Assembly: GCA_947561395.2 (NCBI GenBank)
Contig: OX387194.1
Location: 16,292,048 to 16,356,047, forward strand
Reading direction: 5' to 3'
Source: Buxus sempervirens
Taxonomy: Eukaryota > Streptophyta > Magnoliopsida > Buxales > Buxaceae
DNA: 64,000 nucleotides
Part shown: one piece after another, positions 2,787 through 64,000 of the stretch
Numbering within the stretch: position 1 is the first letter of the stretch
Layout of the letters: each line of letters starts with the position of its first letter
Position numbers and translations under genes: made by a program
Notes under the pieces: model-generated
What the model saw: the letters and a program-made list of their open reading frames with translations, nothing else
Databases searched by the model: none
Told to the model about the DNA's origin: nothing

Positions 2787-2831
2787 AAACTAGTGACATA
2801 TCTCCCTCCATGGTTGAATCCAAGAGAAATC

Positions 2832-26758: not shown

Positions 26759-28177
26759 CTAAAGCTCCAATTTTCGACAAACTAGTTCATCTTTTACAAC
26801 TCTCAGGGGCACTCCAACATCTGAAACAGAGGAAATACCTGGTTCTGGCTTATGGTGACACTTCATGATGAGAGTCATAAGCAATACTACTACAACCAAC
26901 AGTAGAATGGCTATTGCCACCATTGGGACCATTTCCCACATAACACGATGACTAGTAAATCTTCGGTAGCTGCGAATTTGATTGCGAACACGACGGACAT
27001 TGTGATTACATTCCACATCTGGAAGGGAAAGCCTATTAAATATTTTGGGCAACTCCTCCTCAAGTTTAGGATGGCAACAGATGATGCCATGGTCAGCAAG
27101 AAGCTTTGCATCATCCGGAGTGCGAATGAGTTCACACATCAACTGAATATAAGAACATGCCTCACGACAATTTGGACCCATTTGTTGTGCAAACTCATAA
27201 CGCATTAGGTTCCTCAGGAAAAGCTCCACAGAAGAATTAATTACAATGGAAGGCAAGGAAACAGAAGCACTAAACCAAGTCTTATTGAACCTTATCCCTC
27301 TTGTACCCATTCCTCCATTGTCCTTGAAAGAGATGCCTGATAGTTGCAACTTTGTTGCATTAGGGATAACATGGAGTTCATTGTCATCGTCATCGTCGCT
27401 ACTACTTTCATTGCCCGCATCCTTTTCACCAGCATCATGAGTTGAGCATCTTGGCCCAGCCAGCAGTAACCAAAAACCATGCAGAAAATCTGATGGCTCA
27501 TCCATATGCCTTCCAGTCATTGCAGGCACGATCAAGAAGTCAAACAAGGCCCTCTGTGGCAGGTCAATTGGCCGCCTCCATTTTCCCAAGTGAAGAACCT
27601 TCTGAAAGAAGCTTTGTTTCATTAACTCCTTCAGAATTATGAGAGGGATCTGGTTGCCGATCACAAACATGGTTTCAACTATTAGCTTGATTTTCTCTCT
27701 ATCTCTTTGCTCACCAAATATAGCATCCTCTGGGGGATAACCCAGTAGCTTCCAACCACCCAAAGCACAGATTGCAGCTTGTAACATAAAGCAGCCATCC
27801 TTGATCATCAATGATATGAAATTTTCTTGGGAAAGACGATTTAGTGAGTCATCGTTCTCATAGAGAGCTCTAGCTTCAGTCTCCACCCTTTTTATGGCTT
27901 CCACATACAAAAGAGTAGTATCATGATCTTTGATGCTTCCTAAAACATGTTTCCAGGACAGATGTTTTACTGCTTGCCATTCAGGATTAGGACTTTCGGA
28001 GTGGAATGGTCCAAAACTAATTGGTGTGCGTGGATTACGCAGATGCTTTATAGCTCCACTGTCACTGGTAGGTTTGTTGCTAAAGCAGAACTTGCATATG
28101 AGAGGCCTCTGAAGCAACTCTTTGCAGCCCTTACGCCTCTTGTAGTACCTGCCGGTGATGATGGTAGGCGTTGCCAT
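26759..28177 (-). CDS. DUF247 (UPF0481) membrane protein, copy 4, intact
   Basis: A single-exon gene of 472 codons from MATPTIITGR to RKLEL, sister to broken copy 1. Family marks are present in order: SFGPFHS, MIKDGCFML, NQIPLIILKEL, NATKLQLSGI, SLPSIVINSS, LLADHGII and a C-terminal membrane helix within VPMVAIAILLLVVVVLL, with a short tail. The acidic loop (DDDDDNEL) is the most variable part between copies. The start is fixed by the in-frame ATG at 28177, conserved in copies 2, 3 and 5. With copy 2 it is one of only two copies with an undamaged frame. Function beyond the family level cannot be read from the sequence. Confidence 0.93.
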   Translation of the reverse strand: MATPTIITGRYYKRRKGCKELLQRPLICKFCFSNKPTSDSGAIKHLRNPRTPISFGPFHSESPNPEWQAVKHLSWKHVLGSIKDHDTTLLYVEAIKRVETEARALYENDDSLNRLSQENFISLMIKDGCFMLQAAICALGGWKLLGYPPEDAIFGEQRDREKIKLIVETMFVIGNQIPLIILKELMKQSFFQKVLHLGKWRRPIDLPQRALFDFLIVPAMTGRHMDEPSDFLHGFWLLLAGPRCSTHDAGEKDAGNESSSDDDDDNELHVIPNATKLQLSGISFKDNGGMGTRGIRFNKTWFSASVSLPSIVINSSVELFLRNLMRYEFAQQMGPNCREACSYIQLMCELIRTPDDAKLLADHGIICCHPKLEEELPKIFNRLSLPDVECNHNVRRVRNQIRSYRRFTSHRVMWEMVPMVAIAILLLVVVVLLMTLIMKCHHKPEPGISSVSDVGVPLRVVKDELVCRKLEL

Positions 28178-28685
28178 TGCAGATCAGAATTCAGATGAGA
28201 GGAACTGAAAAAATAAGAATGACAACAGTTGGTGAAAAACAAGAGATAATTGCTGCAACTTTTTCTCCTCTGTCTACTACTTTAATAATGTAATGTGTTG
28301 CTTTGGATTCTCCTAATAATAAAAAGATGACTAGCTAATGGGTTCTGTACTATACAGACAGGTAAACAACTGCTTTCTTTTTGGAGGAAAAAGGTGGTGA
28401 TTCAACAAAACCAAGTGGAATTTGTTTTGCATATTTGTGGATTTGCATCAAACACGAATTAGACTTTTGATTTAAGTAGGACAAAAAAATAGGAAACCCC
28501 TCATAGATCACATACCTAAAGACATTTTTCTTCATCAAATGGTTAAATACACTTGATAGGATCCATGAAATAGTAGACCTGTTTCTTAAAATAGAAAGCC
28601 ATGTAGTTAAATACAGCACTCAAACACAAATTGTGACACAATAGCCTACATATTACCAAAACGGCTTGATTTGGGAATTGGTTAT
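28178..28685. other. Junction of units 4 and 5 by deletion
   Basis: Unit 4 upstream sequence runs to CCAAGTGGAATT (about 28422) and then switches to the middle of a unit flank, TTTGTTTTGCATATTTGTGG (equivalent to about 7045-7070). Several kilobases of spacer and flank present between units 1 and 2 are gone. A second, about 70-bp, deletion lies between TTCAACAAA repeats at about 28400. Confidence 0.65.
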
Positions 28686-30211: not shown

Positions 30212-31631
30212 CTAAAGCTCCAGTTTTCGATGAACAAGGGCATCTTTTACAACTCTCAGGGACCCTCCTACCTCTAAAACAAAGCAAGTACCTGATTCTG
30301 GCTTTTGGTGAAACTTCAATATGAGAGTCAGAATTTGCAGTACTACTAGAACCAACAGTAGAATGGCTGCAGCTACCATTGGGACCATTTCCCACGTAAC
30401 ACGATGACTGTTACATCTCAGATAGCTGCGAATTTGATTGCGAACAAGACGGACATTGCGATTACATTTCACATCTGGAAGGTAGAGCCTATTAAAGATT
30501 TCAGGCAACTCATTCTCAAGTGTAGGACGGCAATAGACGATGCCACTGTCAGCAAGAAGCTTTGCATCATCCGGTGTACGAATGAGTTCACACATCAACT
30601 GCAAATAAGCACATGCCTCGCGATCATTTGGACCCATTTGTTGTGCAAACTCATAACGCATCAGGTTCCTGAGCATAACCTCTGTTCTAGAATTTATTAC
30701 AATGGAAGGCAAGGAAACAGAAGCACCAAACCAAGCTTTATTGAACCTTATACCTCTTGTACCCATTCCTCCATTGTCCTCAAAAGAGATGCCTGATAGC
30801 TGCAGCTTCGTTGCATTAGGGACAACAAGGAATTCATTGTCATATTCATCGTTGCTACCACTTTCATCGCTGTCATCATTCTCACCAACATCGTGAGTTG
30901 AGCATCTTGGCCCAGCCAGCAGTAGCAAAAAACCATGTAGAATTTCTGATGGTTCATCCATAGCCCTTCCAGTCATAGCAGGCAAAATCAAGAAGTCAAA
31001 TAAGGCCCTCCGTGGCAGGTCCATTGGCTGGTTCCATTTTCCTGAGTGAAGAACCTTCTGAAAGAAGCTTTGTTTCATCAACTCTTTCAGAATTATGAGA
31101 GGGATCTGGTTCTCCACCACAAACAAGGTACTGACTATTCTGTCGATTACATCTGTCTCTCCTTGCTCACCAAACTTATCATCATTTGGGGGGTAACCCA
31201 GTAGCTTCCAACCACCCAAAACATGGATTGCATCTTTTAACATAAAGCAACCATCCTTGATCATCATTGATATGAAATCGTCTCCAGAAAGATGATTGAT
31301 TAAGTCATCATTCTCATAGAGAGCTCTAGCTTCACTCTCTACCCTTTTTACGGCTTCCTCATACAAACGAGTAGTTTCTGGCTCTTCACTGCTTCTTAAC
31401 ACATGTTTCCAGGACTGTTCTTTTCTTGCTTCCCATTTACCATCAGGAGTTTTTTAAGTGGAATGGCCCAAAACTAACGTGTGTGCGTGGATTACCCAGA
31501 TGCTCTATAGCCCTACTTTCACTGACAGGTTTGTTGTGAAAGCAGAACTTGCATATCAGGGGCCCATGAAGCACCTGTTTGCAGTCCTTGCTCTTGTAGT
31601 TCCTGCCAGTGATGGTGGTAGCCACAGCCAT
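30212..31631 (-). pseudogene. DUF247 family gene, copy 5 (frameshifted)
   Basis: Minus-strand DUF247 copy, most similar to copy 2. It starts at ATG 31631 (MAVATTITGRNYK) and is open through VSFGPFHLKN. One extra base at about 31448-31456, compared with copy 3, shifts the frame and gives an immediate TGA. In the other frame the gene is open from there to the stop at 30212, with KDGCFML, NQIPLIILKEL, SLPSIVINSR and the membrane helix (VPMVAAAILLLVLVVLQI) intact. It is either a young pseudogene or a single sequencing error in an A run. If the base is spurious, the gene would be complete at about 473 codons. Confidence 0.88.
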
Positions 31632-32543: not shown

Positions 32544-33485
32544 CACTACAAAAAATCTAGTTTTTACCGGCGGTAGATTACCGCCGGTAAAGGAGCATTA
32601 CCCGCCGCTAATTGATTTAGGGGCGGGAAATGACCCAGCCTTTGAAAGCATCGACGGTAATGGAATTACCGTCGCTACTTACGGCGCACAGAGTCTACCG
32701 CCGCTATTGGACGTCCAATAGCGGCCGTAGGCTACCGCCGCTGATTTAAACAATTAACGGCAGTTATATACCGCCGTTATTGGATGCCCAATAGCGGCTA
32801 CAGCCTACCGCCTCTGATTTAAAACATTCCCGGCGGGAGGTTACCGCCGCTATTGGATGCCCAATAGCGGCTGCAAAATACCGCCGCTATTGGATGCCCA
32901 ATAGCGGCTGCAAAATACCGCCGCTATTGGATGCCCAATAGCGGCTGTAAAATACCGCCGCTATTGGATGCCCAATAGCGGCTGCAACATACCGCCTCTG
33001 ATTTAGACCATTCACGGCAGTTAATTACCGCCGTTAATGAGCATAATATAATAACAGGCGGGATTTTGTGGCCGGGGATTCAGCAAAATTACCGGCGGTA
33101 GATTACCGCCGACAATTATCAAATAATAACAGGCGGGAGTTAATTGCCGGTGATTCAATCCTTTACCGGCGGTAACTATCGCCGTTAAAAGGGCTATATA
33201 GCGTCTGTATACTTCCCGCCGGTAAAGGCTCCACATAACCGGCGGTAAAAACCGCCGGCTTTTTCTAAATTAACGGCGGGTTCTACCGCCGCTAGAATAC
33301 ATCACGGTCGGCTCGTTCATCGTTCTCCGGCGGTATATGTTGACGCTAATATTCCTTCCATTATTAGCGGCGGATATTTACCGCCGGAAAAACCGAAGGT
33401 TTCGTTTCCTCCCACTAATCACAGGCGGCGATTTGCCGCCGTTAATTATAATTAGCGGCGGTAAACTGGGTACCGCCGCTAATTC
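32544..33485. promoter_or_regulatory. CACTA terminal and GC-rich subterminal region
   Basis: After the CACTA tip, about 940 bp are packed with ACCGCCG / CGGCGGTA motifs in both orientations, in strong contrast to the AT-rich surroundings. In En/Spm elements, short repeated subterminal motifs are bound by the element's own regulatory protein, and these motifs are the natural candidates here. Sequence after about 33490 returns to AT-rich composition. Confidence 0.85.
32842..32989. repeat. Four 37-bp tandem repeats, each a palindrome
   Basis: Units start at 32842, 32879, 32916 and 32953. Each contains CCGCTATTGG, a short ATGC-type centre and CCAATAGCGG, which pair as a 10-bp perfect stem. Diverged copies of the palindrome occur at about 32700 and 32770. 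Units differ by one or two bases. Confidence 0.95.
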
Positions 33486-33839
33486 ACTTAACCTGCATAT
33501 AAAAATTATTGTTAGTAATTGCTTTTCTATTTAAAAAATTACCTGTAAGAAATCCATACAATCACCCATAAAACATACAAACACTATACAAGATTTCATT
33601 GTTTAAAATGAAATCTATAAACATAATCAACAAATGAAACTGAAAAAATATAAACAATGAAATCCATATTTTATCGAAATGTTGTTTTGATGCATATAAT
33701 CCAACACGCAATTAAACTGTTGTGCCTGGCCTTCCTACAAGGAAAAAATTAATTCATTACTTGATATACAATATGTAAAGAAAAATAAGTTAAAATCTTA
33801 TATAATATGATACAAACATCTTCTAGACAAATTGGGCAT

Positions 33840-46104: not shown

Positions 46105-46200
<96 letters not shown>

Positions 46201-46593: not shown

Positions 46594-49531
46594 CTAGGTA
46601 GGATTTGAAGGACTCCCAGGTTCGGATGATTGTCCACCCTGGGAAGCATGATGATAAGGATTGCTTAATTAAATATACATATTTAAAATATAATCAATAA
46701 TGTGTTCTACTATTTCTAGTATTGGATGCAAAATACCTGTCTTGTAAATGATAAGAATAAGCGTTGAAGCTCCGCAAGTTGGGAGGCCTGTTGCAGCACT
46801 TTCTCTTGTAGCTGCTCTCGGTGGTGCATCTCCTCATCTAATCGTTCTTTTAGCTGCTCTCGGTGGTGCCTCTCCTCATCTAATTGTTCTTTCATTCGAT
46901 TAAATTCTGTCATGTCTACCGTTCGGCTGGAGGATGAGCCCCACGTCCTGTTTGGAGTCAACCCCATCCCACAGCATCTAACTCGGCCATGGGTGTCAGG
47001 TCCCATGACCTGAGTGTAGACATCATCACGCGCCATACCATCTGGCGTGCCTCCAACCATAATATTTCGCATCTGTTCCTGAAATAAAGAAAAGTATTTA
47101 AGAACCATAAGAATTACATGAATTTTATGAAATTCAAAATAAAAGCTAATTCTAGATTAGTTGCAACTTACAATCTTATCTGCTGCATCAGCGCTGACTG
47201 GGGTCCCATCCTTCCTAGTATGTGTTTCAATGAAAGTTTCTGCTCGGCCGGCCAATTGCTATATGGCACATGTATTTGGAGAGAAAAATGAGAAAAAAGA
47301 TATAATGCGTAATAACCATTACAAAAAAAAAAAATACAACTTTATTTGAAAGAAAATAATATAACAATAAAAGAATAAGCACATGTGAGGTAATACTCAT
47401 TGAAGGACTTAAGAGGGTGACTCCTTATCTCCTTTGTTGAGATTGCAGGAAATGTGGCTTATTAAGTGGTTTTGAATTTTTAATAGAGAAAATTTTAATT
47501 TTACCCCTAGGCAGCACTATAAGTGGTTGGAAAATGAGATTTTGAGAAATTATAATCCAAAAAGGCTAGCATATGACTCATGAAGCATGCAAAATTTGCA
47601 TGTTAGAAATTACAACTCAAAAAGTCACGCATGTGACTTTTTGAGTGTTTTATACATATAAAGCCTTCCTACCCAAGAATGTCAAGGCATGGTTTTGAAG
47701 TTTTTGTGTGTGGGTGTGTGTTGTTGTTTCTTATATATATATAGTTTCAATCACTATAAAGCCTTCCTACCCAAGATTTTCAAAGCATGGTTTTGAAGTT
47801 TGGGTGTGTAGTTGTTTCCTTATTTTTTTCCTTAAAAAAATATATATAGTTTCAATCCCTATAAACTTAGTGAAAGCACCGTATGGTAAATAATGACACT
47901 CAGTCAAATGATTGGTGTCCGATAGCTATTTGCATTGATGAGTAACTTGTCAAAGATTTTAATAGTTATAAAATGTTGATACCATACTTACTGTCTTAAT
48001 TGTCCTTTATTGTTCTTCAAAGCCAATTTATTAGTCTGTGTGTCGATTGCCTCACTAGCAAGAGCATCAGCAGCCATGTTTCACCATCTCAAAGTAGAAG
48101 CAATTTTCTAGCAACGTAAACCATTGGTTAAAAAATCATAAAGAAGAGCCATAGGATATTGAAATTCATAGGTTAATCAGCTTTGCTCTCCATCATGCAA
48201 TAATTTGAGGCTAGAGACATCAATAAAACTAAATTAAAAGTTTACAGTTGATGTGCAGCATGTTACTCTTTCACATCACAAAAAGTACAAGAAAGGCTTT
48301 ATTCAAACTGTTTAGTCTTTGGAACTCTTAAATCCATAGGAAAACAACGAATCTTTGAAACAAAGAGTAGTATAGAAAATATGAACTTGTCAAGAACAAG
48401 ATATCAGCAAAGAAACCAAACATGGCTTCATTTTCAGGAACAAAGGAAGTCCTTTGTCCTCACCAACGAGGATACAATACCGTGAAATGAAATAGACATG
48501 AAAGGATTATAAATCACAATTATTCGCAATAATCTCTCAATCATTTGGTTAGACAAACAAAGTCAGTTTCTTAAGCTGAAGCTGAGGTTGTTTAAACCCC
48601 AGCTAGTAACTCAGAATACAAGGCTGAGTTACTCAAATTGTAAGGCCTGTATATTGTCGGTTATAAGGAAAATAAACAAACAGATATTATTAAAAAAAAA
48701 TAAAAGAAAGAATAAAGGTTTATTAAAAGGAATTATCTCAAAGTTTCATACCTTCTCATGTCTTACTCTAGCGAAGCTCCTCGTGCCAGCTGTGTGTGTG
48801 AGCGTTTGGTGGGCACGATTTTGTTTATTCCTTGCACAAATTGCTACATCATACCAAGTACATACAAAAATGTTAGAAGCCATTTCAGATATAAAAAACA
48901 GATAGCATATGTAAAAACAATGTAAACATCTTCTTACCTGTGTAGTTTCATTATTCCAATAATATACAAGTGGCTCCCACTGGTCTGGAAGCACCCCAGG
49001 AGGACAATATCAAAATCTGTCCTCATTCGTCGTATATGGATCATAATATTTTTTCTTCAACTCTGACTTGTAGTCTTTCCATTTCTTATTCAATGAATGC
49101 AAGACATACTCTTTATGGCGCTCATCTACAACAAACTTTTCCTACATTGCACACCAAATCAATTTCCCAAGTTACAACCAATAAGTGCTGTGATGAAAAA
49201 ACATTAAAGAGATCTAATTGAACTATCTATAATCTACCTGAATACGTTGCCACGCATCGTCCTTTGCGTCTTGTGAAACCTTTTGCCATGAGAAGCGGTC
49301 AACAGGTAGAACATGGCCATCTCGAGCCAATGTCCCGCAAAAATTTGCTAACTTAGAGACATTGGGCCCGATGGGCTGCCCGTGCTCATTAATGTCTACA
49401 GGAATCTTCTCTCCAGACCTTGTTTGCCTATGGAGTGATAGGCATCGAGTAGGGCCCCTTACCTTCCTTTCAGAAGAGGAGCCCTCGCCACCAACAGCGC
49501 CTGGTTGGTTTTCTACCATATCTTCGCACAT
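46594..49531 (-). pseudogene. CACTA second protein (Transposase_24 type), damaged
   Basis: Minus-strand exons match the plant transposase family found beside TNP2 genes: 49531-49238 (RGPTRCLSLHR, GPNVSKLANFCGTLARD, VDRFSWQKV), 49141-48938 (KKWKDYKSELKKKYYDPY, CPPGVLPDQW), 48843-48752 (ARNKQNRAHQTLTHTAGTRS), 47258-47172 (AETFIETHTRKDGTPV), 47078-46737 (a GMGLTPN segment, then a coiled coil with REQLKERLDEE repeats) and 46638-46594 (GGQSSEPGSPSNPT, stop). An in-frame TGA lies at 49010-49012 in the second exon, and the third exon does not join in frame with the borders I can see. In En/Spm systems the second protein binds the subterminal repeats. This copy is probably inactive unless the TGA is avoided by splicing. 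Confidence 0.8.
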
Positions 49532-50120: not shown

Positions 50121-53100
50121 TTACTCCGAATCCTCCTCGTCATGAATCGAATCGGCTAATGGACTTTGTTCCTCCATGAATGGATCAGATGGTGCATCAA
50201 CAGTTGTTGCAGGTACATCTTCCCTTGCCCAACTAACACCATCATCATCTTGGTCATTATCATGTAAATTCTGCGACCAATATGACTCACAATCAAGGAA
50301 TTTATCAACATCCACATCCATATCAAACAAGTCCCTAGGTTTCATCTTGACAACTACATTCCAATCTTTATCAATTGGATCCGCCACATAAAAAACTTGC
50401 TCTGCTTGAGATGCCAGCACGAACGGGTCATCCATAACTTGTTCGCCAGTATACAACAATCGGCTGAAATTGACTAGCGTGAACCCAAACTCATCAGTCT
50501 TAATGCCTTTTCCTTGTGCCATGACATCAACCCAATCACACTTGAATAGTATATACTTTAGGTGCTCTGAATACGCCAATTCAATCACATCAGTTAGACG
50601 CCCATAGTAAGAGATGTAGCTCGTAACTGGTCTCTTGTCCTTGGCACTTGAATAGCTAGTAGTGCTTGCTTTAACCACAACACCACTATTTTGACTCTTA
50701 GAAAATCTCTCCTTCTCTATTGTGCAGAATCGATATCCATTACTTATGTAACCCTTCATTCTTGTAGCTATTGATCGTGGACCCTGAGCGAACAACACAA
50801 TTTCTTCGGACAAATGGGATTTTGAATTTTTCAATGTCTTGACCTATTTAAGGAGATGCAAAGTGTTCAAACATACTATAAGCAATAATACAAACCAAAT
50901 GAAAACAGTCATTAATTTATATATCAACACATACATGTTCCTTAAGCCATTTCGCAAATTCTTCATTGTGCTTCTTCTGTATTACATGCACGGAGGCTCT
51001 AGAATGACACATATTAAGAATGCTAAGATGCCGCCTGCAATATATAATACAATAGTAAGCACTAGGTTTTGTTTGGTTTGCAATATATTAACAACTGGAC
51101 GAAATAAGCAATAACATCTTACTTTCGATAACTTTCAAGCCTATCATCATTGAAAAGCACATATCGATGCGCCTGTGCCCATTCTACATTTGAGATTTGA
51201 AATGGTTGGGCGCTTCCGACTGCACTTCCATCATCATTTCTCACTGGCCTATTTATTTTGGACTCTACATCGGGCAAATATCGAGAACAGAATGTAAGAC
51301 ACTCTTCCGCAATGTATCCTTCTGCAATGGACCCCTCCGGTTGCGCTCGGTTGCGCACATATGATTTCAAGGTAAATAAATACCTATTAATTAAAAGCAA
51401 TGTAAACAGCATAAATGGATTGCAAAAATTAATTACGCAAGGAAATACAATACTAATATATTGTATCACATACCTCTCTATTGGATACATCCATCGGTAC
51501 TGAACAGGTCCACCCAGCATGACCTCGTCTACTAAATGAACTGGCAAGTGCATCATAATATCGAAGAATGCAGGGGGAAATATTCGCTCCATTTGGCAAA
51601 GCACTTGCACAATACGATCTTTTAATCGCTCTAATTCCTCTACTTCACATACTTTAGAGCACACTTCGTGAAAGAAATTGCTCAATTCGATCAATGCCGA
51701 TGACACATTCTTTGGCAACAACCTTCTAATCGCAAGAGGTAAAAGCTGTTGCATTATCACATGGCAATCATGGCTTTTAAGCCCAAATACCTTGCGTTCT
51801 TTAGCACTTACACGCTTTCCAATGTTGGAAGAATAGCCATCCGGGACTTTCAAACTCTTCAGTACTTCACAAAATAACTCCTGTTCACGCTTGTCCATCG
51901 AAAAGCAGGCAGCTGGCAAACACAACTTCTTTCTATCAGGCAATTCCATTGGGTGAAGTGCATGTCTCACACCCATATCAACCAAATCTAATCGCGACTT
52001 CAAAGTATCTTTTGATTTCCCTTCAATATTTAACAATGTACCAAGCACACTATCACAGACATTTTTCTCAATATGCATCACGTCTAAATTGTGCTTCAAC
52101 AAATTATCTTCCCAGTACGGCAATTCAAAGAAAATACTTTTCTTCTTCCAATTATACGGCATGCTACATGGATTACTGTTTTTTGGACGTTTCTTGCCTG
52201 TACGCTTTCCGAATATATGTGAAGTGCCTCTTAATTGATCCAATATTTCAAACCCAGCCAGTGAACTAGGAGGTTCCCTCATCTCCACGGTACCATCAAA
52301 AGATTGCTTCTGTTTTCGAAACCCATGATTAAGAGGTAAGAACCGACGATGACCCATATAGCAGTGCTTCCTTCCATTACGTAAATAGCGACTGCATGTG
52401 TCCTTGTGACATGATGGACATGCAAACCGCCCTTTCGTGCTCCAACCAGAAAGCATAGCATATCCCGGAAAGTCACTAATGGTCCAAAGTAATGCTGCAC
52501 GTAAAGTAAAGCTCTCTTTTCTTGATATGTCGTAAGTTTCAACCCCAGATGCCCACAACTCTTTCAGCTCCTCTACTAACGGCCTCAAATAAACATCTAT
52601 ATCATTCCCAGGGCCAAGAGGCCCTGGAATAAGTAAAGAGAGCATCATATTTGGCTGCTTCATACACAGCCAAGGTGGCAAGTTATACGGAATCAAAACA
52701 ACAGGCCAAATACTATGTGTGATGCTCATACTCCTGAATGGATTGAAGCCGTCGGTTGCTAAACCAAGTCTGACATTACGAAGCTCAGAACCGAACTGAG
52801 GGTGCACATCAAGAGCCTCCCAAGCGGGAGAATCTGCGGGATGTCTTAATTTCTCATCTTTTTTACGACCCTCAGCGTGCCATCTCATGTCATCGGCCAT
52901 TTTAGATGACATATACATCCTCTGTAAACGTGGCTTCAAAGGAAAGTGGCGTAATACCTTCACTGCCTTCTTCTTTCCCTTCTGTTTCGATTGACCATCT
53001 AGGGATTTCCATCTAGAAGTTCCACATATATCACATGACTCCTTATGGGCAGAATCTTTCCAATATAACATACAATCGTTTGGGCATGCATCAATTTTAC

Positions 53101-53842
53101 TATAACTTAAACCCAAATCTGTTATTATCTTCTTTGTTTGAGAGAAATTATCTGGCAAATTTGTGTCATCTGGGAAAGCCTCCCTCAACAAGACAAGAAG
53201 CAAACTGAATATCTTGTTACTCAATCCTCCCAAACATTTTAAATGAAATAGCCTAATAATGAAAGACAATTTTGTGTGTCTTTTACACCCATTATACAAC
53301 TCTTGATCAGCAACATTTAACAGTTTTTCAAACTTACAATTCTCCCGATTTTGCGTGTCAGCTGGTGCTTTGTGTAACGAACTCACAGATGTATCTCCTT
53401 CAGTCTGAGCACCAAAAATTTCACTCAACATAACCCTAGCCTCATCACCCTTCTTATGTAAATCATCTCCACCATATGCAAACTTAGGTTGGCTAGATCG
53501 TAATCTTACCCTGTCCTCTCCATGGTGATACCAGACCTTGTAAGTCGGGTCAAACCCATTGCATATCATATGCTCGTACGCAACCCGACTGGTCTGATAC
53601 AATACGTTACAGCATTTCGGGCAAGGACACTTCAACTTCTCATTACATGTTGCACCGTGATCTTCAGCAAACTTGATGAACCCAATTACTCCATTTCTGT
53701 ACTCTGGACTAGCCCTGCATCATCCATATATTAAAACATAGCCTATTTAGTTAATATTTGATAATATTTAGCTAACAATGCAACATTAAAAAAAATTTCA
53801 GCCTATTAAATACCTAGAGCTGTGAATCCAACTTCTATCCAT
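50121..53842 (-). CDS. TNP2-type CACTA transposase, five exons, open frame
   Basis: Exons on the minus strand are 53842-53814 (MDRSWIHSS), 53714-51474, 51383-51123, 51034-50935 and 50843-50121. All introns have GT/AG ends, and the joined length of 3354 nt is a whole number of codons (1117 residues). Domains in order: Transpos_assoc (SPEYRNGVIGFIKF, CPCPKCCN), the TNP2 core (Transposase_21; LRHPADSPAW, GLATDGFNPF, LPYWEDNLLKHNLDVMHIEK), DUF4218 (FPPAFFDIMMHLPVHLV, SIAEGYIAEECLTF) and DUF4216 (YYGRLTDVIEL, FKCDWVD). The 90-nt third-position intron (51384-51473) is in frame with no stop, so it could be mistaken for coding. A C-terminal acidic tail ends at TAA 50121. No lesion is seen, which suggests a recently active source. 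It is the enzyme that cuts and moves CACTA ends. Confidence 0.9.
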
Positions 53843-55344
53843 CAGCTAATGTATTCTGTGTCACCAATGTGGGAACGCTATCCTTGTTCTTCTGCAAAAT
53901 AATACTCCATAAATAGGTTCCTTTCTAATATCAAATGGTACTCCGGTTAGTTTTAAAGTTTATGCTTGGTTTTGCCCATTCAAGAATAGCGTGCAAAGTA
54001 CTCGTTTATCCATGTGATGCATATATTTCTCTACGAATTTCTGCAGCATCTCTGCGCAACTCTCCAAATACGTAAAAGTTTCTTGACATACTATGCTTTT
54101 ATCATTCAAATTGGACGATAAATAGCATGAAGTCAAAAAACTACGTATTTGAAGAAAAAAGAGATCGATGAAACCAAAATGACATGCATTAAGAGAAATG
54201 GAAGGTAGAGTTATGCAAAATAGACCAATGGGAATTACACTTACCAAATTCAAGTTGGTGACACAAAGGACACACGATCAGATGAAGAAAGCCACCTCCA
54301 CTATAAAAATCTATAGAACCCTAACGAAATGAAATCACCAAAGGAGGAGGCTAAACATTGAGAGCTTAACCATGAAGCAAATATCAACTAACAAAATTCT
54401 TCAATGAGGATGATAAATGGAGGGTAGAGCTATGCAAAATAGACCAATGGGAATTACACTTACCAAATTCAAGTTGGTGACACAAAGGAACTCACAATCA
54501 GATGAAGAAAGCCACCTTCACTATAAAAATCTATAGAACCCTTACAAAATGAAATAACCAAATAAGGAGGAAGATAAACATTGAGAGCATCTATATTATA
54601 ACTGTTACCAAAGCTTTCACGTGAATTAAATCTTTAAAAAAGCAAGTAAAAAAAATATAACATCAGAAATTTAATAAATAGACTAATACAACATGATCCA
54701 ACATGCTCTAGAAGTACCTGAGACATAACAGTTGCTGTAACATATTTTTCTAAATAATTATGGTTCTACTTCTAATTGAAGACAGTTGGGTGCCACAAAA
54801 CTAAATAAACTTGCTTTGGGATGCTTCATTTAAACCCCCTCTTATTTTCGTATACTTCTCACACTAATATCTTTCGTTTGCAGTAACAAACAAGTATCCC
54901 AAAAAACCCACCTTGACTGCAAGTGGAAGCAAACACAGAGAGGAAAAAGACTTCCATTTTAATTTTTGTTTCTCTCCTTCCCAATCATGATCCATCATCT
55001 GCTTTGGATTCTTTCTCATTATATTTTTTTTCATTATTTCAGTAGTTTTAGTCCAAATATAATAAGTTAAGGAAGCCTTTCTTCATTCAACATTATTGAT
55101 TGCACAACTCTCCTTAGCTTTAGAACTTTCTTCTCCTCCTTTTTGCAGCCTCTTTCTTGTGCCTTTTTTTATTTTATTTTTTTCAGTTGCAGAAATAAAA
55201 TGAAAAGGGATTCAGTTTGGCCCCCCTTTAATGGGATGATTGGTGAACTTAAAGGTCCATGGCAGCTTATACATTTGAAATGTTAAATGACTTAAGCCAG
55301 ATTACATTCACTAGAGTTTAGCACTTTCAACATCTATTATAGTG
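53843..55344. other. Transposase upstream region with a tandem repeat
   Basis: Presumed promoter side of the transposase. A block of about 165 bp at 54201-54364 is repeated at 54420-54588 (219-bp offset), both with GGGAATTACACTTACC and CTATAAAAATCTATAG. No CACTA-type end or GC-rich motif like that at 32544 is seen here. No gene. Confidence 0.55.
54201..54588. repeat. Two direct ~165-bp repeats
   Basis: Copies start at 54201 and 54420 and diverge slightly (small indels near AGGAGG). They lie 0.4-0.7 kb upstream of the transposase start. Confidence 0.85.
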
Positions 55345-55659
55345 CTTTGAACATGGCTGACTCGAAAATGTTTTGATGAGTTGACATGTAAAGTTGAGTA
55401 CATAAACAATCACGCCAGGATTCCCCTCCAATGTGATTGGGCGTGGGGACTTTAAAATCCGAATATTCTCCTTATCCCTCACCCACAAATAGTATGTGTA
55501 TCCCAAATCACACTCTTATGACATCCTTATACCCTCTTATTTAAACCAAACGGCACCCACATTATATCCATTCTATTCCAAAGGCGAACAAAACATAAAA
55601 TACTTCTTTATAGCTTGTCAAGCTTCCAAAAAGATTTTCTCTTGCTTCTTTTGTCTTAA

Positions 55660-55850
55660 TCTCATCAACTCATCACACTTTAAACATATATAAACCCTTC
55701 ACCCATCTTCCTATCATCCTTACTGTTCCATAAGAACACTCCAATCTACTCCCCTCTACCTGCTCTTTTTGTTCATCACTCTTTGATTACTGTCCTTCAC
55801 AACCCAAAAAACCAAACTAAAACAAACCAAGTACCAGCATTTACTGCCGA
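55660..55850 (+). promoter_or_regulatory. Captured FPF1-like promoter with TATA box (left arm)
   Basis: CATATATAAAC at 55685-55695 lies about 160 bp before the FPF1-like ATG at 55851. The same TATA, TTTATATATG, is kept in the right arm at about 58598-58607. Both arms could therefore start transcription inward, one toward the other. Activity is inference. Confidence 0.5.
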
Positions 55851-56180
55851 ATGATTGGGGTTTGGTGTTCGAGAACGGCGTATTTCACCGCAAGGACCCA
55901 ACAACTGAGACTTCGGAAAGACGACAAGCGAACGCTCGCAAGAAGGTGCTAATACATGTCCCCACCAACGAAGTCATATCTTATTACTCCTCATTAGAGA
56001 AAACCATTTTTGGATTAGGTTAGGAGAGGTACTATGATGACACAGACCTCTTTCAGTTCCACAAGAGTATAACCGTTGATTTCATCTCTCTACCTAGAAA
56101 ATTAGGATTCTTTGGCCTAAAGAATTCTCCAAGTTCAAGTCCTTTCACGTGTATGATATTGTCATTAAGAATCATTTCCT
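55851..56180 (+). pseudogene. FPF1-like gene, left arm
   Basis: A flowering-promoting-factor-1-like protein of about 110 residues. It starts at ATG 55851 (MIGVW), then shifts frame by one base and continues FENGVFHRKDP, RKKVLIHVPTNEVISYYSSL, ERYYDDTDLFQFHK, DFISLPR and FHVYDIVIKN. The tryptophan codon in GLGWERYY is TAG. FPF1 proteins are small plant proteins promoting flowering and growth. With a frameshift and a stop it cannot make the protein. It is joined directly to MAX2 sequence at about 56181. Confidence 0.88.
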
Positions 56181-57095
56181 CCTTGGAAGCATTGGAGCCT
56201 ATCCGCAACCGCATACAGAGATTACACATTGATTGTATTTGGGATAGCTTGAAAGATGCTCAGTGACTTATCCAAGCATTCAACTTGAATGAACTTGAAT
56301 AAGATGATGCTGACTATAACGGCCCTAGCAATAACAAATGCAGATACTCAATAGATGGAGATTATTCTCTGATTCAAAACAATGGTAACGAGGTTCAGAA
56401 TAAAACCTAGGATCGATTGCGATATCATTTCTTTTGGATTGCAGTTGGGAAGCTACTAATTCCATTAGCATTGGCAGGGCTTGAGGACTACCCTCTGTTG
56501 GAGGAAATTAGTATCAAGGTTGAAGATAACGACAGGGAAGGCCTAAAGCATCCAAAAAACTGAATTTGGAGTAAGCTCTCTCGAAGTGGCATTCAGATTA
56601 AGCTCACTTATGCAGTATCCTCGCCTGTTGAAGATACAACTGGATTGTGGGGATGCAATAGGTTATGCATTGAATGCACCAACTGGGCGTACAGACCTGA
56701 GTCTGCGGAAGAGGTTTTACTTAAATGGGATTGGAATTTGAATCTCAATGAGCTTGATTACTGACCACCATATGTCATGATATGAGTATCAAAATGCGAG
56801 TAGACTTGTGCAGTTGCTTTAAGGATGTGACACTTTAATAATACAGGATGAAACAGCTATTCAACGAATCCTCAAAGTAACTGCACGAATCTACTCACAT
56901 TTTAGTACTTATATCATTCTTTGGTACAGGATACTAATCTTTTCTCACCTGTACATCCCTGAGATTGGGGATCCTGAGAAGAAACATCATAAAGTGCTCA
57001 TAGATTGTGCCATGGATGAAGAGCTTTCTGAAGGTGGCACGTTCTGTAAGCAACCCAGCACCAGGGAGAAAAAGGGTCCTTTGGTACACATCCAG
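56181..57095 (+). pseudogene. MAX2/D3 F-box gene pieces, left arm
   Basis: From about 56181 the plus strand, with several shifts and stops, encodes a MAX2/D3 middle region: LEALEPIRNRIQRLHIDC, NKCRYSIDGDYS, LEDYPLLEEISIKVE, YPRLLKIQLDCGDAIGYAL, GRTDLSLRKRFYL and LNELDY-PP (to about 56775). A 48-nt C-terminal piece follows in the same direction (56779-56826). The C-terminal segment then lies reversed (minus, about 57093-56830) with FRKLFIHGT, EHFMMFLLRIPNLRDVQ and YPVPKNDISTKM. MAX2/D3 is the leucine-rich F-box protein that, with D14 or KAI2, targets SMXL/D53 repressors for degradation in strigolactone and karrikin signalling. The F-box and N-terminal half are absent. Confidence 0.87.
56779..56915. 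ncRNA. Hairpin of MAX2 C-terminal sequence (left)
   Basis: GATATGAGTATCAAAATGCG... (56779-56826) pairs imperfectly with its reverse complement at 56868-56915, about 48 nt per arm with a loop near 41 nt. Both arms derive from the MAX2 codons for NDMSTKMRVDSCSRFED. Size and mismatch pattern resemble a plant microRNA precursor, but expression is unknown, so the ncRNA label is tentative. Confidence 0.4.
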
Positions 57096-57214
57096 TTTCA
57101 CTGCTCATTTCCATTTCTGCCACGCTTTCAAACTCTCCCTTTTTAATTTTTTGTGAACCAAATGTACTTTCTTTTTTAAATTTTTTTTGTGAACCGGATG
57201 TACTTTTTTTTTGA

Positions 57215-58100
57215 GGATGTGCAATTGGATGTACACCAGAGGACCCTCTCTCTCCTTGCTGCTGGGTTGCTTACAGAATGTGCCACTTTAAGAAAACCCT
57301 TCATCTATAGCACAACCCATGAGCACTTCATGATGTTTTTTCTCAGGATCCCCAATCTCAGGGATATACAGCTGAAAGAAGATTACTATCCTGCACCAGA
57401 GAATGATATAAGTACTAAAATGCGAGTAGACTCTTCCAGTCGCTTTGAGGATGCGTTGAATAGCCGCATCATCCCGTATTATTAAAGTGTCACATCCTTA
57501 AAGCAACTGCACAAGTCAACTTGCATTTTGATACTTATATCATGACATGTATTGGCCAGTAATCAAGCTCATTGAAATTCAAATTCCAATCCCATTCAAG
57601 TAAGACCTCTTCCACAGACTCAGGTCTGTACGCCCAGTTGGGGCACTCAATGCATAACCTATTGCATTCCCACAATCCAGCTGCATCTTTAACAGGCTAG
57701 GATACTACGCAAGTGAGCCTAATCCGAACGCAACTTCGATAGAGCTTACTCCAAATTCAGCTTTTGGGATGCTTTAGGTCTTTCCTACCGTTACCTTCAA
57801 CCTTTATACTAATATCCTCCAACAGAAGGCTGTCTTCTAACCCTACCAATGCTAATGGAGTTAGTAGCTCCCCAACTGCAATCCAAAGGAAACAATATCG
57901 CAATCAATTCCAAGTTCTACTCTGAAACCCGTTACGATTTTTTTATATCAGAGAACAATCTCCATCCATTGAGTATCTGCATTTCGTATTGCTAGGACCG
58001 TTACAGTCAGCATCATCTTTTTCATCTTTCAAGCTATCCCAAATACAATTAATTTGTAATATCTATATGCGGTTGTGGATCGGCTCCAATAACTCCAAGG
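57215..58100. pseudogene. MAX2/D3 pieces, right arm
   Basis: Plus strand, about 57219-57485: an open C-terminal MAX2 segment (QRTLSLLAAGLLTECATLR, HEHFMMFFLRIPNLRDIQL, EDYYPAPENDISTKMRVDSS, FEDALNSR, stop). Minus strand, about 58100-57552: the middle segment (LDYWPP end near 57553; CGDAIGYAL region near 57650) with stops. The layout mirrors the left arm. The C-terminal segment is better preserved here than on the left. Length is a small part of the roughly 700-residue protein. Confidence 0.87.
57405..57541. ncRNA. Hairpin of MAX2 C-terminal sequence (right)
   Basis: 57405-57452 (GATATAAGTACTAAAATGCG...) pairs imperfectly with 57494-57541, about 48 nt per arm. It is the mirror copy of the hairpin at 56779-56915, with its own substitutions. 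A microRNA-like role is inference only. Confidence 0.4.
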
Positions 58101-58433
58101 AAGAAAGGATTCTTAACGACAATAACTCCAAGGAAGAAATGACTTGAACTTGGAGAATTCTCTAAGCAAAAGAATTCTAATTTTCTAGGCAGAGAGATGA
58201 GATCAACGGTCATACTCTTGTGGAACTGAAAGAGATCTGGATCATCATAGTACCTCTCCCAACCTAACCTAAAAAGGATTTCCGCTAATGAGGAGTAATA
58301 AGATATGATTTCCTTGGTGGGAACATGAACTTAACACCTTCTTGCGAGTGTTCGCCTGTCATCCTTCCGAAGTCTCAGCTGTTGGGTCCTTGCGGCGAAA
58401 TACGCCGTTCTCAAACACCCAAACCCCAGTCAT
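58101..58433 (-). pseudogene. FPF1-like gene, right arm
   Basis: The minus strand starts at ATG 58433. Here the frame lost in the left arm is kept (MTGVWVFENGVFRRKDPTAE), followed by a TGA where the left arm has the RQAN arginine, and then frame loss. FQFHK and LISLPRK remain. The phrase CTTCCTTGGAGTTATTG is repeated at the 3' end, a short tandem duplication at the FPF1/MAX2 joint. Non-functional as protein. Confidence 0.85.
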
Positions 58434-58616
58434 TCGGCGATAAATTCTGGTACTTAGTTTGTTTTAGTTTGATTTTTTTAGGTCGTGAAGGACAGTAATC
58501 CTAGAGTGATGAACAAAAAGACCAGATAGAGGGGAGTAGTTTGGAGTGCTCCTATAGAACAGTAAGGATTATGAGAAGATGGAAGAGGGTGGAATGGTTT
58601 ATATATGTTTGAAGTG

Positions 58617-59803
58617 CAAAGAATTGTTGGAATATTTTAGGGCTTCCAACATGTCCCACAAGATATAAAATGTCTAAAATGAAAGTTTTTAGACAAATCA
58701 GGATTGTCTTCGAATTACTCAAGCTTCTAAGGGCTTATGAACTTGGAATTTAGGCTTCCAAAGCTTCCTGAAATTACGCAGGCTTTCAGGGACCTTCATA
58801 AACTTCTAGAATCACACAAGCTTCTAGAGGCTTATGAAGATAAGATTCTGAAATTTCAGGCTTCCAGAGGTCCTATGAGTTAAGGAATTAAGAGGCTTCC
58901 TTAGGCCTATACAAATTTCTTGGAATGAGCGCAAGCATCCAAGGGCTTATGAAGTTTTTGAAGAATCTGGAATTTCAGGCTTCCAGCCATCCTATGAGTT
59001 GAGGAATTACGCAGGCTTCCTCATATCTATGAAGTTTTGAAAAATCTGGAAGTTTAGGCTTTCAACAATCCCATGAGTTTCTAAATTAAGGCTTTAGAAG
59101 ACCTATGAAATTAAGAATTACTCAAGCTTTCCTAAGGCTTGTAAAAATCTGGGATTCAAAGGTTACTGGTGGCCCATGAAATCTGAAGTTTAAAGGCCTT
59201 CAGTTGTCCTATGAATTGATTGTTTGAAATTCCAAGGCTTTCAAAGGCCGAAAAAGATTGACGGAATTAGTCAGGCTTCTAAGGGCCTATGAAGCTTAAA
59301 AATCTCAAATTCAAAGGCTTTCAGAGGCCTATGATAAACTTGATAAAATTTGAAATTCAAAAGCTTTCACATGCCTATGATGTTTTTTTGAACCTTCTTT
59401 GAAACTCTTTGAGTTGAAAAAGAAGCACAAGTTGCTTTAAAGAAGTTGATTTTTTTTTTAATTTTTATTCTTTTTATTTCTGATTTTGAGTTGTTATTTG
59501 CTTGGAATTCAATCGTTTCCAAATGACCCACAAAAGGACTTCTTAAAAGCTTGGGATTCCAAGGTTCCCAAGAAACCTATGCACTTATTTGGAAGATCTT
59601 TTCTTGGGGTAGAACACGAAGATTATTTAAGTTTTGATGACTTAAAACTTGAGATTTTCTTTGAAGACTTAGCTCTGAAAACAAATCAAATATAAGACTA
59701 ATTTCTAACTCATCTCAAAGACAAGCTATAAGAAGAATGTAGCCTTATATTGACTTATTATTCCACATTTTTGCAAACTTCCCCAAAGTTAAAAGTTTAG
59801 GCA
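58617..59803. mobile_element. 1187-bp insertion in right arm, internally repetitive
   Basis: The right arm is interrupted between GAAGTG (58611-58616) and TGAGGAG (59804), while the left arm is continuous at the same point. The insert holds many degenerate copies, about 50-60 bp apart, of AGGCTTCCAGAGGCCTATGA-like sequence (about 58720-59390). It has no coding domain. It begins near TGTTGGAATATTTTAGGG and ends TTTAGGCA, reminiscent of a solo LTR, but I see no target duplication. It sits about 10 bp upstream of the right-arm TATA box. Confidence 0.6.
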
Positions 59804-60116
59804 TGAGGAGTCGATGAGCTTAAGACAAAAGAAGAAAATCCTTTTGGAAGTTTGGCAAACTATAAAGAAGTATTCTATTCCTTGTTCGCCTTTGGAATAA
59901 AATCTAGATAATGTGGGTTTCGTTTGGTTTAAATAAGAAGGTACAAGGATGTCATAAGAGTGTAATTTGGGACACACATACCATATGTGGGTGGGGGATA
60001 AAGAGAATATTAGGACTTTAAAGTCCCCACTCCCAATCACATTGGGGGAATCCTGGCGTCTACTCAACTTTATATGTCAACTCATCAAAACATTTTCGAG
60101 TCAGCCATGTTCAAAG

Positions 60117-62849
60117 TTTAGGGTTGCTTCCATGGCCTTGCAAATAGCCACAGCTAGCCTGCAATGATCTCATGGCATGTGTTTGATCAACAAATATCCA
60201 CAGCTAACATTCATAAGCAAATAGCCATAGCTAGCAGCTAACAAAAGAGGAAAATTGAAGGCGGAAGTGCAAAACCATAATATCAATTGTGACAAGGCTA
60301 TTCTTGTCCCTCTATGGCCATAATACCTCGTGAGCTCTCTTCCTATAACAAAATCTATTGTTCTTTGGTATAACACTTTTCTAATCTAACGCGGGGAATA
60401 GAAATCCCTATGATAGGTTTCAATCCCGTGTACAAAAGTTCGAGAAAGATAAAAAATTACAATATAGAGAGATCACCAGCTTCCTAGGAGCTCAGTTGCC
60501 AATAAGAACCTGATTCATGATGATCTCTAACTTGTCCACATCACTAACATGGATGTCTTTTAGGAGTTGGGATCATTTTTCCCTTAATGACCATGTCACT
60601 ATCAACAAATCATGGCTAAAATTTAAAAAATATTTTAGAGTACAATATAGCCATAAAATAGCATTAAAAAAAACTCATGAACGCACATGGAATAAAAAAC
60701 TCTCACAGAGATAAAGGATAAGATGAGGAAGAGTTTAAACTTTAAATAATTAGTATCCTTACCCATACAGCCAACCTTATGCCAGTCCAAAATGGCCTAT
60801 CCAAATCACTATAGCACTGGATTAGTTTCAGCTAGTATCAAGGGATCTTTTAAGTATTACCTAAAAAACTATGCATGCCTTTATATGTCCTACGTCTAGT
60901 CATTCTAACGCCAATACAGGTTGGCCAACCCATATCAGTATTTTGGCAATACTTTAAATCATAGAGGGAGGGAGGAGAGGCAAGTAGGCTAATACTTTAA
61001 ATCAACAGCTAGCAATAATTAATGTGTTTTACCAAATATTTAAATGCAATATTTATATTAGAAAAATATTAAAAAATGGAAATTTGAGGAAGAAGAAAAG
61101 CTCAACATTAAAAAAAAAATTCAAAATTTGAAGAGGAAAAAAGAAGATAACATTACACAAGATATCAAGAGTTGTACTGATTAATTCCAATCATTCTTGT
61201 TGTCATTGTTAGTTATTTATTTCTTTTTATTCTATGAAATACCTTGATGAACTCCTGATCAAAATCTGGGGCTGTATTTTCCAACCAAAGGAAATAGAGT
61301 GGATTGGGTGTGGTTTTTGACCTATTAGGGATTAGCCCAACTTGAAGTTAATCAGTCCAAACTGTTTCCAGTATGAATTGAGCCTGACCCCAATATAAAC
61401 CCTTCAATACCTATTTTAAACATAGGGCTTTCTATAAAACTCCCATTAACATTTTCTATCTAGCATAGATGTCTCACATAAGATCCATACAAATAAGCAA
61501 TGCAGAAAAAACCCAAAAACAAAATCCCCCTAATCTCTCTCTTATTGATGTCTCCTACTCAACCCAGATTTATCTCTCCTTCTCGTTCACATTTTATACT
61601 TCACATGAAAGTGCTTTTTATTGTCTTTACCAAACATTTTTCTTTTTTTTTAACCACATCGTATTAAATGTTTCACAAGAATTGATTCTAAAGGAATCAT
61701 GTCTCCTTCCAAGAAGCAATACGAGTTAGAAAGGTCAATAAAACTCAGAGTCTTACAATAACTTATAGGAGAACCACCAGAAAGATTTGGGTTACAGTGT
61801 GGCAACTGGCAAGTTGATCACAACATATTGCGGCCTTCTTCTTGTTAGAAGTTCATGGGCAAAATCAATATGGTATCCGGCAAGGGTAAGGTTCAAAAAA
61901 GGCCTGGCATCACAACAATAAGTTCAGTTTGAATAAGAGATGGAATAATACATTCCTCATAATAGCATAGGATCGCATGGATTGCTAAGAGAATTAAAAC
62001 ACGACGATTGAAGGCGAAAACCCCAGGTCTATGGGATTACCCCAAGACCATACCACTGACCCCAATCACCTTTAAGTACTCAAAATTAAATTACATTATA
62101 CATTCTTCATTCATTCCATATACATGCCACTAGAGCTAAAAACTATAAACATTTAAAATAAGAGGTAGAAGATATAAGGTTTTTAAACCACGAAAAGAAA
62201 GCATGTATAAGTACCTTCTACAAAACCTTGATGGTGCAATAATATTGAGATTACATAATTATTCGCATGCCAATAACACCATATATCATGATTTGCAACC
62301 TTTACATTTATAATTTCATCCTATGTCTTAAAATCATAAATTATTAGATGGTGGCACGATACCACTATGTCTAGGATCGTTAACTTAAACACACGAAGAA
62401 ATAATCTAAGCAGATAGAAAATTAGCAAATTGAATATTGAAACTATTAACTAAAAGGCAGATCTATTTGAACATCTGATTAGATCAAATAGATCAATAAA
62501 TCAGATCAATTGAAGGGACTTTCCAAATACCAATTAGTTCCCCTAGGTTGCCTTCAATCGCAGTCGGATGATAATCCGAAAGCTATTCCTCGGCAGAGCC
62601 CGGTAGGCGGTATTTGTTGAACATAGGTACAGATCTCAAGCCAGGGGGCGTCTGTTGATCTGTCTCGGTACTTCTAGAGTCCCTAAAAGAATTGATCTTG
62701 ATAAATTGAACTTATTGATCTAATCTTTTGATTTTTGAAAGAAATTGAAGACAGCAAAACAAATACCAAAAATTACAATGCATATCATATGCCATGGCCT
62801 AAATACTTACAGCATGACACATTATAGATACTAGAGAATAAATACTTAC
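60117..62849. other. Region without a recognised gene
   Basis: AT-rich DNA with only short open frames. A more GC-rich patch at about 62540-62690 (CAGAGCCCGGTAGGCGG) has no identified role. No terminal repeats, RNA genes or exons could be supported. Confidence 0.4.
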
Positions 62850-62972
62850 CCATTCTAGAGGCAACAAAAATGCAAAAGCACTTGATGATTTGCTTCCTGC
62901 TTTCAGAGCCACAGCCCTTCCTTGCCAATCAATGACTGGGGAACCACTTGACCCTCCTTTAGTTCCTAATGC
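62850..62972 (-). pseudogene. DEG7-type protease exon
   Basis: The minus-strand exon runs from an AG acceptor (TTTTTACAG, 62973-62981) to a GT donor (GTAAGTATT at 62849). It encodes AALGTKGGSSGSPVIDWQGR followed by AVALKAGSKSSS and FLLPLEW. The GGSSGSP box holds the catalytic serine of DegP/HtrA trypsin-like proteases, and the wording matches plant DEG7 (protease Do-like 7). No adjacent exon was recognised on either side. It may be a stray fragment or one exon of a gene running off the right edge, so the pseudogene label is tentative. Confidence 0.7.
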
Positions 62973-64000
62973 AGCCTGTAAAAACAGAAGAGAAAAATGT
63001 AGAAACAAAAAAAGAAAACCTAAATAGCAACCAAGACTTTACCAAACCACAGCACGTACATGAAGGATTAGAAATTCATGTTTTTATCATGAAGAAGGAT
63101 TTCTATGACAAGTGTCTTATAAATCTGGAAATTTTTGGCAACACAATAAGCATCTCTAGGCCATTTACTACCATTCTCAGGTGTCTTATTCTGTTGACAT
63201 ACAAAAGGAAAAGACTCAAATATCCTTACTAGCTTTGACGATTAAATATAAGTACATAATACAAGGAATGCTTGAGAATGGTGTAGCAAGCAGCGTACTC
63301 CAAGTACAAAGAAATAGAGATTGGAAATTTGTATTCTAATCTAACAAAAATTCCTGAATCACGCTCTTTGTGCCATAATTTAGAGCTGTTCCTCAAAGGA
63401 GGTTTAAACAAAAGTAATATACTTTGTTTTGCTATAATTAGAGGCATCTAAAAACTGTATGTTTTTTCTCTATCTTATTTCTTTGTACAACCACACAAAG
63501 CTCCTTTCTGAACAAGTCCATTTATCTTGATGCATGAAGTACACAGGAAAGAACATGTGCATGCACAGGAAGTATAATAAATTACCAACACAACATCGGT
63601 GAAGAATGATAAAAAAAATTGCTTAAACACCAAAGGACATCTCCCTAGAAGCTATCATTATGTGATAACGCTGATATGAAATGCGTTTTGCACATGTTAG
63701 AAATTAAGATAGACATGCAGGGCAGTCCATCCTTATTTACCTCCAAATGCACAAAACATGTATTCTGCAATTTCTATATATGATAGTTTATGAGATGACG
63801 TGAACTACAATACACTTTGCATCATAGCCCTCGTATTTTGTTATTGACTAATTTTGCCCTCCACGTGCTTCGCACGTGGTTGGTCTATGTACCAATATAA
63901 TTTATCTAAATATAATTGAAGTAGTTACTCCAGGCATTGCAATTGCAATGACAATATCCTAATTTATTTTCAAGGAATTTAAAACACACATTAAATTTCA
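62973..64000. other. Right edge, no further exon recognised
   Basis: If the DEG7 exon belonged to a complete gene, its earlier exons should lie to the right on the minus strand; none was recognised up to 64000. A perfect hairpin, CCACGTGCTTCGCACGTGG, is at 63861-63879. Confidence 0.4.
63861..63879. repeat. Perfect 8-bp stem hairpin with two CACGTG boxes
   Basis: CCACGTGC and GCACGTGG flank a 3-nt loop. Hairpins like this occur near the 3' ends of plant Helitrons, but no CTRR end is seen at the expected distance on either strand. Confidence 0.6.

Follow-up and report, generated by a model that had tools for sequence, protein, structure and literature searches.

A palindrome of FPF1-like and MAX2/D3 gene pieces in Buxus sempervirens: probably an old, decaying inverted duplication of a chimeric pseudogene

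Does a palindrome assembled from pieces of two plant growth-regulator genes serve as a source of regulatory small RNAs, or is it what remains of an old rearrangement? The question is raised by positions 55345-60116 of a 64,000-nucleotide (nt) stretch of Buxus sempervirens DNA (assembly GCA_947561395.2, contig OX387194.1, positions 16,292,048 to 16,356,047, forward strand), referred to below as the window. A preliminary description of this DNA read the palindrome, composed of FPF1-like and MAX2/D3 sequence, as a possible small interfering RNA (siRNA) regulator of strigolactone/karrikin signalling and flowering. We assign a probability of roughly 0.6 to a different reading, in which the locus is an old, decaying palindrome of a chimeric FPF1-like/MAX2 pseudogene that today would be silent or an incidental source of small RNAs, and not a maintained regulator of MAX2 or FPF1.

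Comparison of the whole window with itself on the minus strand (blastn, E <= 1e-10) returned five inverted pairs. Three of these (813, 595 and 331 nt) make up the palindrome; the remaining two, of 165 and 46 nt, come from self-overlapping palindromes at other places in the window, so that chance is excluded. A repeat search placed the outermost paired block at 55345-55400 and 60061-60116 (98% complementary) and the innermost pairing at 56296-57101 with 57219-58024, with 117 nt between. The two inverted arms around a spacer of about 120 bp noted in the preliminary description are borne out, and their coordinates are exact to the base. The arm length of about 1.7 kb given there holds for the left arm but not for the right, which is longer because about 1.18 kb is present in that arm only.

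55345-57101, plus strand: left palindrome arm, 1,757 bp (repeat search and arm alignment)
57102-57218, no strand: central spacer, 117 bp (repeat search)
57219-60116, minus strand: right arm, inverted, 2,898 bp including the extra segment of about 1.18 kb (repeat search and arm alignment)
58630-59811, no strand: right-arm-only segment, about 1.18 kb, edges approximate, with a degenerate repeated motif (blastn)

The arms are identical at 272 of 300, 523 of 595 and 700 of 804 positions in the three aligned segments, for an overall identity of 88.0% over 1,699 aligned positions (p-distance 0.120). The blastn match between them stops at 58616 and restarts at 59804, and the edges of the extra segment are approximate to that extent. 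Seven copies of CCTATGA lie on the plus strand of this segment, compared with 11 on the plus strand of the whole window. The segment begins about 10-25 bp upstream of the right-arm TATA motif, which it separates from the part matching the upstream segment of the left arm; it may have been inserted into the right arm or lost from the left one. Assembly errors are a recognised risk with palindromes, and a false palindrome had been named as an alternative. The 12% substitution divergence, the indels private to each arm and the 1.18 kb found in one arm only refute it, and we give an assembly artefact practically no weight.

The MAX2/D3 component is the better identified of the two. Three read-through MAX2 pieces matched solved MAX2-type chains by sequence search (E = 1.3e-20, 4.3e-23 and 8.7e-31), which upholds the earlier statement that each arm contains MAX2/D3 pieces; their identity is confirmed at the level of these sequence matches. 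Together the pieces span approximately residues 489-763 of the 771-residue chain 9kkx_C, and the first 488 residues have no counterpart among the pieces searched. Pfam named neither of the two MAX2 pieces submitted (no match above cut-off). An intact MAX2/D3 frame with F-box and leucine-rich repeats was not found; the pieces are partial and interrupted by frameshifts and stops.

56180-56769, plus strand: left MAX2/D3 middle piece, approximately residues 489-680 of 9kkx_C, frameshifted (solved-chain matches)
56777-56827, plus strand: left short direct copy of MAX2 C-terminal sequence, 51 nt (repeat search)
56835-57092, minus strand: left MAX2/D3 C-terminal piece, inverted relative to the middle piece (arm alignment)
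57228-57485, plus strand: right MAX2/D3 C-terminal piece, residues 687-763 of 9kkx_C (solved-chain match)
57494-57543, minus strand: right short direct copy of MAX2 C-terminal sequence (arm alignment)
57552-58101, minus strand: right MAX2/D3 middle piece (alignment to left arm)

From the outside inwards, each arm consists of the outer segment, TATATAAA, the FPF1-like frame, the MAX2 middle piece up to YWPP, a direct copy of about 50 bp of MAX2 C-terminal sequence, and the reversed MAX2 C-terminal piece near the spacer. The breakpoints of the middle and C-terminal pieces almost adjoin within MAX2, and the C-terminal part has therefore been turned round, with a short repeat at the join. This corrects the layout described previously: the pieces are present as stated, but the C-terminal one is inverted inside each arm.

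55687-55694, plus strand: TATATAAA motif upstream of the left FPF1-like frame, possible core promoter (identified as a motif)
55851-56169, plus strand: left reading frame, broken, presumably FPF1-like
58102-58433, minus strand: right reading frame, broken, presumably FPF1-like, inner edge approximate
58598-58605, minus strand: TATATAAA motif upstream of the right FPF1-like frame, facing inward (identified as a motif)

The broken frame in each arm is one that we take to be FPF1-like, a name that no tool confirmed. Two FPF1-like pieces submitted to Pfam gave no match at E <= 1, and matches to solved structures were at chance level (E = 0.71 and 0.72). None of five FPF1 motifs was found printed in the literature collection searched. 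Among viral contigs there was no confirmed relative of the FPF1 piece (31 pattern stretches) or of the MAX2 C-terminal piece (24 pattern stretches). As to the inward-facing, TATA-bearing promoters of the preliminary description, an inward TATATAAA does stand in each arm (at 55687 and 58598), but “promoter” is a reading of it; the same word is found at 8 places per strand across the window, and the motif alone is therefore weak evidence for a promoter.

The order of events can be read from the defects that the arms share. Both arms contain the FPF1-MAX2 join and the inverted MAX2 C-terminal piece. By eye, against FPF1/MAX2 sequence and the solved MAX2-chain alignments, both also contain a frame-shifting insertion after ISLPR in the FPF1-like frame and MAX2 frameshifts at HPK/EFG and GIG/NLNL. 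The duplication therefore acted on a chimera that had already become a pseudogene. In the first step, an FPF1-like gene, 5' region included, and MAX2/D3 would have contributed pieces to a chimeric pseudogene, in which the MAX2 C-terminal piece was inverted with a repeat of about 50 bp at the join, perhaps by template switching in repair or transposon gap filling. In the second, the broken chimera was duplicated in inverted orientation, as the common defects show, and the arms have since drifted 12% apart without significant codon-position bias.

Defects private to one arm comprise eight gap events in 55663-57101, one of them of 39 nt, and arm-specific stops. Differences between the arms fall 48:31:40 by codon position (p = 0.16); this bias is not significant, and coding selection on the arms was set aside as an explanation. 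Divergence is 9.3% in the outer segment, 12.1% in the leader plus FPF1 and 12.9% in MAX2 (p = 0.26), so conservation is no greater in the gene-derived parts than in the outer segment. Substitution rates in plants of 1.3e-8 to 6.5e-9 per site per year, applied to the Kimura two-parameter distance of 0.133 between the arms, suggest that the inverted duplication is roughly 5-10 million years old. Apart from a strand bias described below, we find no sign in the sequence of maintenance as a regulator.

The capacity to form a hairpin is nevertheless retained. The stretch between the two TATA motifs (55715-58565) was folded, and the plus strand reached a predicted -1,913.5 kcal/mol with 1,200 of 1,233 pairs formed between the arms, compared with -685.2 and -683.9 kcal/mol for two mononucleotide shuffles and -649.1 kcal/mol for one control stretch of the window. 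The minus strand reached -2,114.8 kcal/mol, and its longest helix has 68 pairs as opposed to 42 on the plus strand. These predicted folds sustain the earlier claim that a transcript between the TATA motifs would fold into long double-stranded RNA (dsRNA). We infer that a transcript running across the centre is bound to form some 1.2 kb of imperfectly paired dsRNA, and long dsRNA of this kind is a plausible Dicer-like substrate. The locus thus has what is expected of a hairpin RNA locus, a long inverted repeat that can form a dsRNA stem, and, in its MAX2/D3 pieces, the origin from protein-coding gene fragments that is expected of a proto-microRNA. No known Rfam microRNA (miRNA) family was matched in the window at gathering score, which weighs little, since a young miRNA would not be listed.

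These properties would suit a working hairpin-siRNA locus, in which a transcript from an FPF1-type promoter would be cut by Dicer-like enzymes into siRNAs that lower MAX2 and/or FPF1 mRNA. Such a locus would account for the inverted-repeat anatomy, the strong predicted fold and the retained TATA motifs, and it has precedents in a rice inverted pseudogene pair (PMC2708354) and soy-miR15/49 (PMC3903507), as far as the available parts of those papers describe them. We consider it improbable all the same: the chimera was broken before duplication, the gene-derived parts show no higher conservation than the outer part, the segment of about 1.18 kb next to the right TATA motif has no counterpart in the left arm, and in the portion of the rice report available no small RNAs were detected from the parental gene (PMC2708354). 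For the first three of these reasons, together with the absence of significant codon bias, the proposed regulation of strigolactone/karrikin signalling and flowering is not supported, nor is it disproved.

The substitutions between the arms have an unexpected direction. When the plus strand is folded on itself, the 141 transitions appear as 102 A:C and 39 G:T mispairs (binomial p = 1.1e-7); equivalently, 102 of the 141 keep G:U pairing in a minus-strand RNA and 39 in a plus-strand RNA. All nine blocks of 200 bp agree in direction. Read on the plus strand, both arms have gathered an excess of G-to-A or T-to-C changes, which on the minus strand are C-to-T or A-to-G. Neither arm decays faster than the other (left A/T with right G/C at 76 sites, the reverse at 65; p = 0.40). 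The 63 transversion mispairs comprise C:T (21), A:G (18), C:C (9), A:A (7), T:T (7) and G:G (1). The transition bias could reflect minus-strand transcription, selection for pairing of a minus-strand RNA or a regional mutation bias, and strand-specific repair of folded DNA is a further possibility.

Several observations weigh against the reading of the palindrome as a decaying pseudogene duplication. Plain neutral decay does not explain the 102:39 strand bias unless mutation is strand-biased here, and the bias fits a minus-strand hairpin. Both TATATAAA motifs are still intact. Helices of at least 21 pairs persist in the predicted folds, 16 on the plus and 25 on the minus strand. The observed/expected CpG ratios of the arms (0.48 and 0.52) lie above the upper quartile of the window (quartiles 0.24, 0.32 and 0.45), and CG sites show only modestly more C-to-T change (20/139) than CHG (20/193) and CHH (101/1034) sites; a clear imprint of prolonged methylation silencing is therefore lacking. 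Given this small C-to-T excess at CG and the undepleted CpG, decay through methylation was set aside.

The strand bias therefore leaves room for a transcribed hairpin, and in one version a minus-strand transcript crosses the palindrome, with that strand exposed to deamination or its pairing selected so that G:U replaces lost Watson-Crick pairs. We regard this as a tentative possibility. It is favored by the transition counts, and of the 13 stop-to-stop frames in the window that reach 150 codons, 10 are also on the minus strand, the CACTA transposase among them. The better minus-strand fold points the same way; it results from the transition bias and is not independent of it. However, the ratio in the outer segment (13:5) resembles that of the inner parts, which suits mutation rather than selection on one RNA, and changes polarised at CpG follow the same direction without significance (12:6, p = 0.24). 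The whole window is moreover skewed the same way, with AT skew above 0 in 54 of 64 and GC skew below 0 in 43 of 64 bins of 1 kb; by rough reasoning, and not by computation, the mean regional skews of 0.072 (AT) and -0.043 (GC) seem mild for so strong a transition bias. A bolder version, which we consider very unlikely, is that two unrelated growth-regulator genes supply one minus-strand hairpin RNA whose pairing selection is marked by the 102:39 transitions. The palindrome would then be a dual-target siRNA locus with a working strand readable from substitutions alone.

The palindrome could also be a transposon that captured genes, either a foldback or Pack-type element with the gene pieces in its arms or cargo beside a CACTA element. 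The chimeric gene pieces inside inverted arms are in keeping with this, as are two neighbouring features 1.6 kb apart:

50121-53719, minus strand: CACTA transposase open frames with Transpos_assoc, Transposase_21, DUF4218 and DUF4216 (Pfam; Transposase_21 at E = 1e-98)
55340-55344, no strand: TAGTG directly outside the left arm, possible CACTA (En/Spm) transposon end (partner end and 3-bp target duplication not found)

The second feature suggests a CACTA end that cuts or abuts the left arm, in which case the palindrome would lie outside the CACTA element. Among the words listed, CACTA follows CTT in 1-55400 only at 3503, 38641 and 54519, and none is a convincing partner end; the partner may lie beyond the window. 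A CACTA end at 32544 is alike at 10 of 14 positions to the TAGTG ends at 55340 and 11522, five of these positions being forced by the search, and its flank differs (AGT, versus CTT at the 55340 end). The flank of the right arm does not reappear left of the CACTA frames. No target-site duplication was found at the outer edges of the palindrome, where the longest word common to the 30-bp flanks is 5 nt and not at the left edge; a foldback/Pack element was set aside on this ground, although a CACTA insertion, if it cut the left end, would hide such a duplication. Beyond the right arm and short internal repeats, the window holds no further copy of the left arm at E <= 1e-5. On balance, we find the captured-gene transposon unlikely. 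Pack-MULEs and Pack-TIRs resemble the palindrome in their captured gene pieces, and template switching has been proposed for Pack-TIRs in the available text of PMC8277862; they differ from it in that the palindrome has no transposon ends with a target-site duplication.

A pair of direct copies spaced about 220 bp apart occupies 54193-54570, upstream of the CACTA transposase (blocks of 78 and 86 nt, 96% and 88%). Transposase_24 is weakly matched at 46719-47156 (E = 7e-5, below its cut-off). The end CACTACAAAAAATC opens 32544-33700 and is followed by subterminal repeats with CCGGCGG-like words, with no convincing partner end in the window; such subterminal repeats are typical of CACTA transposons.

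In its anatomy, by analogy, the palindrome is of a known kind, the inverted duplications of gene fragments that feed small-RNA pathways. As described in the part of PMC3903507 available, soy-miR15/49 arose when an invertase fragment was joined to other sequence and then duplicated in inverted orientation, and the result is a long inverted repeat formed, as here, by fusion of a fragment with unrelated sequence before inverted duplication. That family comprises seven repeats of about 647 nt, besides a longer copy and some truncated ones, and its miRNAs have been sequenced, whereas the Buxus palindrome is known from DNA alone, occurs once in the window, has a left arm of 1.76 kb and draws on two source genes. 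The rice pairs are likewise opposite-strand pseudogenes able to form hairpins; in the accessible text, the case in point has a much shorter stem (185 nt, 83% identical), one parent gene and observed small RNAs (PMC2708354). Mu killer of maize is a partial inverted duplication proposed to give a long hairpin RNA, but it derives from a transposase gene and silences MuDR, and the part of that paper available ties silencing to short antisense transcripts unable to form large hairpins (PMC3440606). YUP of Mimulus and SULF of Antirrhinum, as cited in passages of PMC12371187 and PMC10673657, are also among the closest known systems. In those passages, phased siRNAs (phasiRNAs) from YUP are reported to change flower colour, while the evidence for the palindrome is at the DNA level only. 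SULF reportedly acts through small RNAs. No paper treating MAX2, FPF1 and strigolactone together was found within the literature collection searched.

New small-RNA genes have been proposed to arise by inverted duplication of gene fragments, and in this palindrome parts of two genes, MAX2/D3 and FPF1-like, are joined in one hairpin. If small RNAs are made from it, genes of strigolactone/karrikin signalling and of flowering would be tied to a single locus; if none are made, it offers a roughly dated example of such a locus in decay. The count of transition strand bias among arm differences requires nothing beyond the sequence and is usable on any old palindrome.

Elsewhere in the window, a cluster of DUF247-like frames, some of them broken, lies on the minus strand at 2832-4259, 8065-9591, 16776-17921, 26759-28183 and 30212-31453; the frame at 8065-9591 was assigned by Pfam (E = 1.2e-46) and the other four by eye from their translations. 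A Proton_antipo_M frame at 2133-2789 (minus strand, E = 2.4e-27), which we take to resemble plastid ndhD, is probably organelle DNA in the nucleus. Two open frames at 23484-24525 (plus strand), the second with a weak zf-RVT match (E = 7e-5, below its cut-off) and the first with none, are probably a long interspersed nuclear element (LINE) remnant. The piece at 62802-63038 (minus strand) is a weak match to a trypsin-like protease (Trypsin_2, E = 0.0024, below its cut-off) and presumably resembles a plant Deg protease. An (AG)n run of about 89 bp occupies 46110-46198.

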